Origin: Caulobacter sp. NIBR1757
GTDB taxonomy: Bacteria > Pseudomonadota > Alphaproteobacteria > Caulobacterales > Caulobacteraceae
NCBI RefSeq assembly: GCF_027912495.1
Contig: NZ_CP115463.1
Coordinates: 248,001 to 312,000, forward strand
Length of the DNA stretch: 64,000 bases
Direction of reading: 5' to 3'
Shown here piece by piece: positions 19,311-37,891 of the stretch. The position numbers and the translations under genes are program-made. The notes below the pieces were generated by a model. The model ran no database searches, was not told the DNA's origin, and saw only the letters and a list, made by a program, of their open reading frames with translations. Numbering within the stretch: position 1 is the stretch's first letter; every line of letters begins with the position of its first letter.

Positions 19311-19469
19311 ATCCTCCCCCGTTTGCGGGGGAGGGGGACCGCGCGAAGCGTGGTGGAGGGGGCGAGTGCAGGGCGCAGACAGCAAAAAGGGCGACGGCGC
19401 ACGGCCCTCGCCCCTTCCACCACCCGCTGCGGGGGCGGTCCCCCTTCCCCGTGAACGGGGAAGGATGAG
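19311..19469. repeat. Palindromic repeat, 'atcctcccccg...ggggga' family
   Basis: Arms ATCCTCCCCCGTTTGCGGGG...GACCGCGCGAAGCG...GGTGGAGGGGGCGAG, with the complement ending CGTGAACGGGGAAGGAT. Same family as 34974-35145, 37694-37891 and the copy inside ybeY (24331-24535). It fills the metK-trmB gap and ends 3 nt before the metK stop. Confidence 0.8.
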
Positions 19470-23978: not shown

Positions 23979-24638
23979 CTAGCTCTGTTCAGCCGCGTAG
24001 GGGTCGGAAACGCTTAAGGTGGCCAGCACCCGGCGCTCCAGATTCTCCATCGCCTCCGCCTCATCATCGGTCTGGTGGTCGTATCCCGCAAGATGCAGCA
24101 CGCCATGCACCGTCAGATGGGCGAGATGGTCGCTGAGGGTCTTGCCCTGCTCGGCCGCCTCGCGGGCGCAGACCCCGAAGGCCAGGGCGATGTCGCCCAG
24201 CAGGTTCTCTGGATTTTCCGGGGCCGGGAAGGACAGCACATTGGTCGGGCCGGCCTTGTGGCGGAAGGAGAGGTTGAGTTCGGCGACCGAGGCGTCATTG
24301 GTCAGCAGGACGACCACGGAGCCGAATTCCTCCTCCGGGCGAAGCACGGGGGAGGGGGACCGCCGGCCCGACTCAGGGCCGGTGGTGGAGGGGGCAGCGC
24401 CGGCGGACGAGGGTTCACTCAGATCACGGTCGGCGGCGGCATTCAGGGATTCTTCGGAAGGGCCGGCGCTGCCCCCTCCACCACCGCCTTCGGCGGCGGT
24501 CCCCCTCCCCCGTCCGCTTCGCGGCCGAAGGAGGATTTGCAGCGTGGCCGTCGCCGCTCGCGTCACGACCGCCTCGACGTCCGCAACCGCGTTCCACGCA
24601 GGATCCTCGACCTCAACCTCTATCTCGGGATCGCTCAT
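23979..24638 (-). CDS. ybeY: Endoribonuclease YbeY carrying an in-frame repeat-encoded insertion
   Basis: Single-strand endoribonuclease for rRNA processing and ribosome quality control. 219 residues against about 150-160 usual. The catalytic zinc motif HGVLHLAGYDH is intact at 178-188. Core segments FGSVVVLLTNDASVAELNLSFRHKAGPTNVLSFPAP (about 105-140) and LLGDIAL are normal. The extra material is residues about 35-103, rich in Gly, Ser, Pro and Arg, encoded exactly by an inverted repeat of the intergenic 'atcctcccccg' family. The reading frame passes through both arms without a stop. ATG at 24638 overlaps the phoH stop by one base (TGATG). Confidence 0.92.
   Translation of the reverse strand: MSDPEIEVEVEDPAWNAVADVEAVVTRAATATLQILLRPRSGRGRGTAAEGGGGGGSAGPSEESLNAAADRDLSEPSSAGAAPSTTGPESGRRSPSPVLRPEEEFGSVVVLLTNDASVAELNLSFRHKAGPTNVLSFPAPENPENLLGDIALAFGVCAREAAEQGKTLSDHLAHLTVHGVLHLAGYDHQTDDEAEAMENLERRVLATLSVSDPYAAEQS
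24331..24535. repeat. Palindromic repeat inserted in frame in ybeY
   Basis: About 205 bp with arms of roughly 85 nt. The left arm reads TCCTCC...GGGGGAGGGGGACCGCCG...GGTGGTGGAGGGGGCAGC. The right arm is its near-complement, GCTGCCCCCTCCACCACCG...TCCCCCTCCCCCG...GAAGGAGGA. Same family as 19311-19469, 34974-35145 and 37694-37891, which are all intergenic. On the coding strand it translates to about 69 low-complexity residues. Confidence 0.85.
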
Positions 24639-34973: not shown

Positions 34974-35145
34974 AATCCTCCCCCGTTTACGGGGGAGGGG
35001 GACCGCGAAGCGGTGTGGGGGCGAGGGCCGTGCGGCGACGGCTCTCAGGAATGGCCAACATAGAGGTGAAGACGGCGCTCTGTCACTCGCCCCTTCCACC
35101 ACCCGCTTCGCGGGCGGTCCCCCTTCCCCGCAAGCGGGGAAGGAT
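34974..35145. repeat. Palindromic repeat, 'atcctcccccg' family
   Basis: 172 bp: left arm ATCCTCCCCCGTTTACGGGG then GGGACCGCGAAGCGG; right arm CCACCCGCTTCGCGGGCGGT ending GCAAGCGGGGAAGGAT. Same family as 19311, 37694 and the ybeY insertion. It fills the thpR-aldo/keto reductase gap. Confidence 0.8.
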
Positions 35146-37693: not shown

Positions 37694-37891
37694 ATCCTCA
37701 CCCGTAGCGCGCAGCGCGTACGGGGGAGGGGGACCGCGAAGCGGTGGAGGGGGCGAGGGCCGTGCGCCGCCCTCTCCGATTTTGCTCCGATCCCGTTCCC
37801 GATCGGCCTCACTCCGTCCCTCGCCCCCTCCACCACCCGCTTCGCGGGCGGTCCCCCTCCCCCGTACGGCCTTCGGCCTACGGGTGAGGAT
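37694..37891. repeat. Palindromic repeat, 'atcctcccccg' family
   Basis: 198 bp. Left arm ATCCTCACCCGTAGCGCGCA then GTACGGGGGAGGGGGACCGC; right arm GCGGTCCCCCTCCCCCGTAC then CGGCCTACGGGTGAGGAT. It lies inside the ybbA-ybbP operon, so any termination it causes must be incomplete. Confidence 0.8.

Follow-up and report, generated by a model that had tools for sequence, protein, structure and literature searches.

A 208-nt nested palindrome of a genome-wide repeat family lies in frame within ybeY of Caulobacter sp. NIBR1757

The ybeY gene of Caulobacter sp. NIBR1757 is confirmed here to carry a 208-nt nested palindrome, which belongs to a genome-wide repeat family and lies in frame in this conserved gene. 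The gene was analyzed within what we call the window, a stretch of 64,000 nucleotides of contig NZ_CP115463.1 (positions 248,001 to 312,000). As the best explanation, and one to which we attach a high probability, we propose a tolerated in-frame insertion of a mobile repeat into ybeY that would be translated as a disordered linker.

The palindrome within ybeY and the enlarged protein

The window protein is assigned to YbeY on the basis of its matches to Pfam (residues 107-207) and to NCBIfam TIGR00043 (residues 107-210), the HGxxHLxGYDH motif, and its fold. It had been predicted from the sequence alone that this ybeY encodes 219 residues, with HGVLHLAGYDH intact and an excess segment made of an inverted repeat; the open reading frame and the arms of 100% identity bear this out, and the stretch from a conserved Trp to TNV, which holds the segment, is shorter in 119 of 125 ybeY genes. 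The frame runs without a stop across the insert, and both flanks are homologous to insert-free YbeYs. The palindrome is nested, with outer and inner arms (Table 1), and ends in TCCTCC...GGAGGA. As these ends lie at 24328-24535, the coordinates first proposed for the element (24331-24535) were correct to within a few bases.

Table 1. Coordinates of ybeY and its palindromic element, of further copies in the window, and of in-frame copies within enzyme genes of relatives (the last numbered within their own loci)
Feature	Position	Strand	Remarks
ybeY CDS, 219 aa	23979-24638	-	Start ATG overlaps phoH stop; Pfam PF02130, TIGR00043
Complete palindromic element (208 nt, subfamily A)	24328-24535	.	L001:1498-1705; encodes about YbeY residues 35-104
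Outer inverted-repeat arm	24346-24365	+	20 nt, 100% versus 24494-24513
Outer arm partner	24494-24513	-	20 nt, 100% versus 24346-24365
Inner inverted-repeat arm	24380-24404	+	25 nt, 100% versus 24462-24486
Inner arm partner	24462-24486	-	25 nt, 100% versus 24380-24404
Spacer separating inner arms, the fast-evolving portion of the ybeY insert	24405-24461	.	
GACTC (GANTC, CcrM-type methylation site), in one hairpin tip	24370-24374	+	Sequence
YbeY N-terminal module (a strand and the larger part of helix 1), ahead of insert	24536-24638	-	Alignable to insert-free relatives
Catalytic motif HGVLHLAGYDH, residues 178-188	24075-24107	-	
Subfamily B copy outside ybeY	19311-19460 (end approximate)	.	Arm cores in common with ybeY copy
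Partial or degenerate subfamily B copy	34974-35040 (end approximate)	.	Arm cores in common with ybeY copy
Full subfamily B copy	37694-37888 (ends approximate)	.	Arm cores in common with ybeY copy
Asparagine synthase, element in frame between GATase_7 and Asn_synthase domains (G402, G225, G405)	L373:1589-1712, L374:1644-1773, L379:1577-1718		
Hydantoinase (G398), element in frame in hydantoinase B part	L377:1584-1707		

When folded as RNA, the segment 24331-24545 gives -152.2 kcal/mol (z = -9.5), with none of 200 shuffles folding as well, and three predicted folds, this one included, reach -152.2, -151.5, and -140 kcal/mol (z = -9.5, -10.25, and -7.9). In Rfam, the ybeY palindrome matches the microRNA family MIR8670 at 37.2 bits (E 0.0005; gathering score, 150), which we attribute to chance, the hairpin being long; apart from this sub-threshold match, the Rfam scan of five loci gave none.

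The AlphaFold2 model of the 219-residue protein, run on a 32-sequence alignment, has a mean pLDDT of 81.2. Averaged in ten-residue blocks, pLDDT is 43-54 over residues 41-100 and 98 in blocks 11-30 and 111-120, with edge values of 86 (31-40) and 79 (101-110), and the disordered segment is flanked by a helix (21-37) and a strand (108-113). In a Foldseek comparison, the modeled core matches chain A of E. coli YbeY (1xm5) with a TMt of 0.89 and an rmsd of 2.0. The insert is thus predicted to be disordered and to lie between helix 1 and strand 1, with a core that still folds as YbeY; the original prediction, which had placed the insert in a loop ahead of the strand VVVLLT, agrees with this model. 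We infer that the 219-residue YbeY is made and functional.

The repeat family, its mobility, and its recurrence in frame

A BLAST search of the window's genome (G000, one contig of 4.47 Mb) with a 205-nt query gave 92 matches at E <= 0.001, counting the self-match and both strands of the palindrome, and many of them spanned the whole query with 71-81% identity. In this genome, GTGGAGGGGGC, the core, was counted 95 times versus 10 times for the reversed control. Of 75 genomes of the genus, the window's included, 56 contain a half-unit, GGGGGAGGGGGACC-n-GTGGAGGGGGC, and the largest count, 90, is that of the window's genome.

Two subfamilies can be distinguished. Subfamily A, to which the ybeY copy belongs, has inner arms followed by AGCGCCGGC or near variants, and its full copies measure 207-226 nt in the window's genome and 202-231 nt across four genomes. 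Subfamily B is shorter and carries GGGGGCGAGGGCCGTGCG and variants. It had been proposed that the ybeY arms match repeats at 19311, 34974, and 37694; the arm cores are indeed shared, although these three belong to subfamily B and the one at 34974 is partial. The terminal inverted repeats that serve as a criterion for MITEs are present as TCCTCC...GGAGGA. These ends were required by the strict pattern that selected 36 full copies from four genomes, degenerate copies excluded, and they are also visible without that requirement.

The tips of the inner hairpins vary in sequence yet stay complementary, with 103 of 105 positions paired over 21 distinct tips versus 62% when sides are swapped between tips. 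GANTC is found in 7 of 21 full copies of the window's genome, always in an inner tip (8 sites in total versus 10.4 expected from base composition). Among the 33 full copies outside ybeY, 73 of 198 frames are open, so that a copy of the family may well read as coding sequence and an open frame by itself is weak evidence. Solo terminal hairpins of 31-39 nt, resembling a collapsed element, occur at positions 739667, 917688, 3161465, and 4109276 of the same contig (G000:C1).

Mobility was addressed with a 19.9-kb stretch (L215) that holds three copies and was compared with four relatives: Caulobacter sp. RYN_457 (G051), G031, RI_161 (G037), and Caulobacter sp. SLTY (G033). The copy at L215:17892-18095 is absent in RYN_457, G031, and RI_161, in which about 7-12 bases separate the matching flanks, and SLTY has a solo hairpin at this site. 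The copy at L215:4042-4252 is present in RYN_457 and RI_161; from flank to flank, its site measures 17 bases in G031 versus 233 in the window's genome, and 44 in SLTY versus 263. The copy near L215:1775 is missing in RYN_457 together with about 280 further bases, and this site is consequently not clean. A target-site duplication is not clear in the comparisons with element-free sites. As relatives differ in which copies they carry at sites other than ybeY, this palindromic family is, judged by comparative sequence, mobile. Two other segments of the stretch, L215:11906-12070 (G000:C1 about 3622805-3622970) and L215:17280-17415 (about 3628180-3628315), match many places in relatives and probably represent other repeat families.

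Mobilization by RAYT was considered and rejected for the three PF01797 RAYT genes of the genome that exceed the cut-off, as GGGGGAGG occurs on neither strand within 1.5 kb of them; a fourth match (L144) is weak. One TCCTCC-type word lies 424 bases upstream of one RAYT gene. The RAYT gene at 3922167-3922487 on the minus strand (L162, G000:C1:3918000-3926000) has palindromes of its own on both sides, TTAATTGGGGACACGCACCATTTTCC or similar and its complement, unlike the ybeY repeat.

That a mobile repeat had inserted in frame in a conserved gene was part of the original prediction, and the genome-wide copies, their presence or absence at other sites, and the open frame all speak for it. In-frame copies in other genes are seen in a hydantoinase and in Phenylobacterium asparagine synthases. 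Among the ORFs scanned at 52 loci with the motif (39 and a further 13) in the window's genome, no recognized gene other than ybeY has an element inside it. The 39-locus list took only ORFs with a coding-like G+C bias, and a spanning ORF was found at three of these loci, ybeY, L010, and L025. The latter two were rejected as genes, as their ORFs have no Pfam match and look like antisense shadows. Where ORFs end within elements (L028, L152, L005, L004, and L023), the element lies outside the recognized domain, and in the L219 ORF, it lies upstream of the M16 domains. Among the 13 further loci, spanning ORFs occur only at sites of one or two motif hits (L223, L225, L226, and L227), from which one L223 ORF was scanned and gave no match. 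In Caulobacter relatives, the element lies upstream of a recognized domain with an uncertain start (L249, L166, L246, and L169) or after the domain (L181).

Twenty regions other than ybeY were taken from the matches listed, mainly with long open frames, and in four of them the element lies in frame within a recognized enzyme (Table 1). Residues 528 and 578 of the G398 hydantoinase align with residues 807 and 814 of 7hk5_A, which places about 43 extra residues at the element. In the asparagine synthases, the frame of the element in G225 differs from that in G402 and G405, and there is consequently no single coding frame of the element. In three Phenylobacterium regions (L372, L380, and L382), the element is upstream of the domain. 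Among the remainder, L385 and L386 have no motif near the center, L381, L383, and L384 no spanning ORF, and L376 no Pfam match; the Pfam scan covered the regions other than L375, L378, and L387-L391.

The loop of YbeY itself was surveyed in 125 genomes over the part from a conserved Trp to TNV, in a non-random set of which 30 were best matches and part was chosen for insert-reaching alignments. The distance is 42-61 residues in 119 of the 125 genes, and it reaches 117 in the window's genome, 118 in RYN_457, 114 in ACE_PRO14 (G043), and 90 and 92 in two Phenylobacterium genomes (G235 and G419); the value of 86 in SLTY is not meaningful, as its frame is broken. The insert in G235 is a complete, shorter copy of the ybeY repeat family, in frame, with different tips and spacer, and that genome holds 26 half-units, two of them within ybeY. 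The insert in G419 (L339) is a different palindrome with 23-nt arms, in frame in the same loop, and its core is found only at L339 among 371 loci. The five long in-frame YbeY inserts found are thus palindromes in one loop and stem from at least three independent events.

In another genus (G086; L271), a perfect 34-nt hairpin with 15-nt arms is in frame in the same YbeY loop. An exact-pattern search finds its core once in that genome, and it is therefore not claimed as a repeat.

History of the insert and the explanations weighed

A YbeY match was obtained in 73 of 75 genomes of the genus, and it is continuous over the insert only in the window's genome, RYN_457, and ACE_PRO14; in SLTY, it consists of two overlapping pieces in different frames, and in RI_161, of two pieces without the insert. 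Against 398 relatives, an insert-rich query placed the same three genomes at the top among the matches listed, a search that by itself did not reveal the G235 insert among those matches. The insert-reaching alignments read in G150, G136, G133, G223, G086, G282, G001, G003, G009, and G071 contain no copy of the ybeY repeat family. It follows for the original prediction that most YbeYs lack the segment, as had been expected, and that the insert is not special to the window's genome. The proposed insertion would have been put in doubt by relatives that carry the segment without nearby repeats; both RYN_457 and ACE_PRO14 hold the family in their genomes.

At the ybeY site, a 33-nt palindrome is found in RI_161, one of 27 nt in SLTY, and no trace in G031. 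The multi-gene tree (FastTree) gives ((window's genome, RYN_457), G031), then SLTY (0.85), with (ACE_PRO14, RI_161) as sister. The tree of ybeY alone keeps (window's genome, RYN_457, G031) and (ACE_PRO14, RI_161) and places SLTY elsewhere (0.84). Recombination of ybeY between lineages, at which windowed identities had hinted, was dropped because both trees group the species alike. Since two other Caulobacter genomes carry the insert, two keep a hairpin, and one sister is without it, the insert probably reflects, on this distribution, one old insertion in a shared ancestor, followed by reduction in two lineages and by loss in another. As G031 is nested in the carrier clade and has no insert, a single gain would have to be followed by three or more losses or reductions. 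The four solo hairpins elsewhere in the window's genome, which are like that of RI_161, suggest recurrent internal deletion. In SLTY (L064 and L035), the N-terminal and core frames of ybeY are mismatched across the remnant hairpin, through either a frameshift or an assembly error; accordingly, the insertion site is not always harmless, or that assembly is at fault.

It could alternatively be argued that the repeat entered ybeY separately in different lineages, which we regard as unlikely while giving it some weight. G031, the sister of the window's genome and RYN_457, bears no trace of the element, independent events in the same loop do occur (G235 and G419), and the ACE_PRO14 spacer is weakly tied to that of RYN_457: for the spacer alone, identity of the window's copy is 79% with RYN_457 and 69% with ACE_PRO14, and ACE_PRO14 falls outside the five best for the RYN_457 spacer. 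Against separate insertions, the three copies have the same orientation in the gene, and the whole-element ybeY copies of RYN_457 and ACE_PRO14 are nearest to other ybeY copies among the 36 full copies. In that set, the RYN_457 copy is 84.6% identical to the window's and 83.4% to the ACE_PRO14 copy, with the next four listed at 74-78%, and the two best matches of the ACE_PRO14 copy are the other ybeY copies. The best match of the window's copy is that of RYN_457 ybeY (84.6%), with another RYN_457 copy at 82.6% and the ACE_PRO14 ybeY copy sixth.

The insert has evolved differently from the enzyme that surrounds it. The three pairwise dN/dS comparisons are 0.167/0.134, 0.220/0.223, and 0.269/0.310 over 47 insert codons, a count that excludes the beginning of the insert, where indels place the window's genome and RYN_457 in different frames; over 107 core codons, they are 0.080/0.364, 0.141/0.454, and 0.119/0.459. 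The ratio is therefore about 1 in the insert versus 0.2-0.3 in the YbeY core. The inserts of the window's genome and RYN_457 differ by indels of +1, +1, and +4, in total six bases or two codons, and together with the dN/dS of about 1, this means that the frame was kept and the peptide was not. Counted by hand from the list of invariant alignment columns, no variation is seen in 44 of the 46 columns of the inner arms (52-74 and 133-155) versus 28 of the 58 of the spacer (75-132), and ACE_PRO14 shows one mirrored double change, in which column 66 goes from A to G with column 140 from T to C. As dS is also lower in the insert than in the core, something beyond protein selection appears to hold the palindrome. 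Such conservation of the arms would be expected alike from structural selection, from gene conversion among copies, and from fold-back repair.

On the first of these, it could be speculated that the palindrome is retained for its RNA or DNA structure, with an mRNA hairpin that affects stability, translation, or the downstream corC and lnt, and that is perhaps a cleavage site for an RNase, YbeY itself included; the peptide would be a by-product. We consider this improbable. The near-invariant inner arms with their mirrored change, the stable predicted folds, and the low insert dS would all fit, but the arm cores are common to the copies of the family, gene conversion or fold-back repair gives the same pattern, and two relatives have a short hairpin and one has none, from which it follows that no structure is required. 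A related and similarly improbable proposal is that the YbeY loop is a recurrent docking point for unrelated palindromes because an mRNA hairpin there is useful, with YbeY or another RNase tuning the level of the enzyme; selection would in that case act on the palindrome as RNA and leave the peptide to drift. The conserved arms, the drifting spacer, the mirrored double change, and the presence of at least two palindrome families in the loop are consistent both with this proposal and with plain tolerance.

Three further explanations concern whether the insert reaches the protein or exists at all. Translation might initiate inside or past the insert to give a short YbeY without helix 1, as in-frame GTG codons in and just past the window's insert, an in-frame ATG inside that of RYN_457, and the broken N-terminal frame of SLTY could allow; this is very unlikely, given that the N-terminal residues align with relatives with or without an insert and that the ATG overlaps the phoH stop, as is typical of coupling. 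Bypassed hairpin inserts are known in some mitochondria, and the insert could likewise be left untranslated by ribosomal bypass of the hairpin or by splicing or cutting of the RNA, but the window's genome, RYN_457, ACE_PRO14, G235, and G419 all have an open frame in phase with the gene, and the frame was restored after indels, whereas a bypassed insert need not remain open, so that we give this possibility slighter credence still. An assembly artefact, conceivable since palindromes are difficult to sequence, can practically be dismissed for an insert found in a single 4.47-Mb contig and again in the RYN_457 and ACE_PRO14 assemblies.

Tolerated insertion and its relation to known repeat systems

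A tolerated in-frame insertion would account for these observations as follows. A mobile Caulobacteraceae palindrome would have entered the YbeY loop that joins helix 1 to strand 1, in frame and free of stops, in the ancestor of the six sampled Caulobacter species, and would be transcribed and translated with ybeY, giving a disordered linker some 70 residues long. Because such a linker would leave the catalytic core alone, the enzyme could tolerate it. Selection would retain the reading frame and not the peptide, and the insert would occasionally shrink to its terminal hairpin, presumably through deletion between short repeats in the arms. We infer that tolerance, rather than benefit, lies behind the retention of the insert.

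In-frame palindromic inserts are best known in Rickettsia, an intracellular parasite under relaxed selection. Our analysis extends them to conserved enzymes of Caulobacter and Phenylobacterium, with a species-level time depth, and a single gene displays insertion, frame-restoring indels, an unconstrained peptide, and hairpin shrinkage. The repeated hits on one loop mark a place at which YbeY may tolerate about 40-70 extra residues, and the loop could serve as a testable case of repeats turning into protein sequence. The literature searches made found no published palindrome inside ybeY and no report of the ybeY repeat family in Phenylobacterium. The phenomenon itself is known; new with respect to the searched literature are the hosts, a single gene from which the history of an insert can be read, and the recurrence of inserts in the YbeY loop.

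The nearest precedents are Rickettsia palindromic elements (RPEs) and intragenic REPs. RPEs are described as palindromes of 100-200 bp that occur in multiple copies, some of them in frame in genes of conserved proteins, with a peptide that is seemingly tolerated (PMC2229807, PMC10969869). The ybeY insert resembles them as an in-frame, stop-free copy of a multi-copy palindrome with homologous flanks. It differs in that the hosts here are free-living, the full subfamily A copies measure 202-231 nt, the frame of the element differs between genes, and ybeY is the only supported intragenic case among the ORFs scanned in the window's genome. By behavior, the ybeY insert can be regarded as an RPE-type insertion, which is a likeness in kind rather than a claim to membership of an RPE or REP sequence family.

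For intragenic GTAG/CGTC REPs, the published account places the repeats in ORFs of conserved genes, often as dimers, with a REP at about the same site in recB of two Xanthomonas species and with more than half of the intragenic inserts being dimers or groups that encode 20-30 residues (PMC3733652); the ybeY element differs as a longer composite. With the REPIN/RAYT system, the family shares paired inverted hairpins and a genome containing PF01797 RAYT genes, but no arm core adjoins the three above-cut-off genes within 1.5 kb and one of these has palindromes of its own.

In build, the family resembles the Caulobacter CcrM-associated intergenic repeats (CIR), which are described as two inverted-repeat arms and a linker, with GANTC in one hairpin tip of some copies (PMC2229807). 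CIR is further portrayed, in the same source and in a second, as intergenic, not found in genes, and with stops in all frames (PMC2229807, PMC10969869). The ybeY family has the same build of arms and linker, with GANTC in some tips. It differs in that the ybeY copy is intragenic and GANTC is present in only 7 of 21 copies of the window's genome, with no excess over base composition. The comparison is one of description only, and the ybeY family is accordingly not filed as CIR. If it were nonetheless the CIR family, the published description of Caulobacter palindromic repeats with such a build as strictly intergenic would need correction in view of the insert in ybeY.
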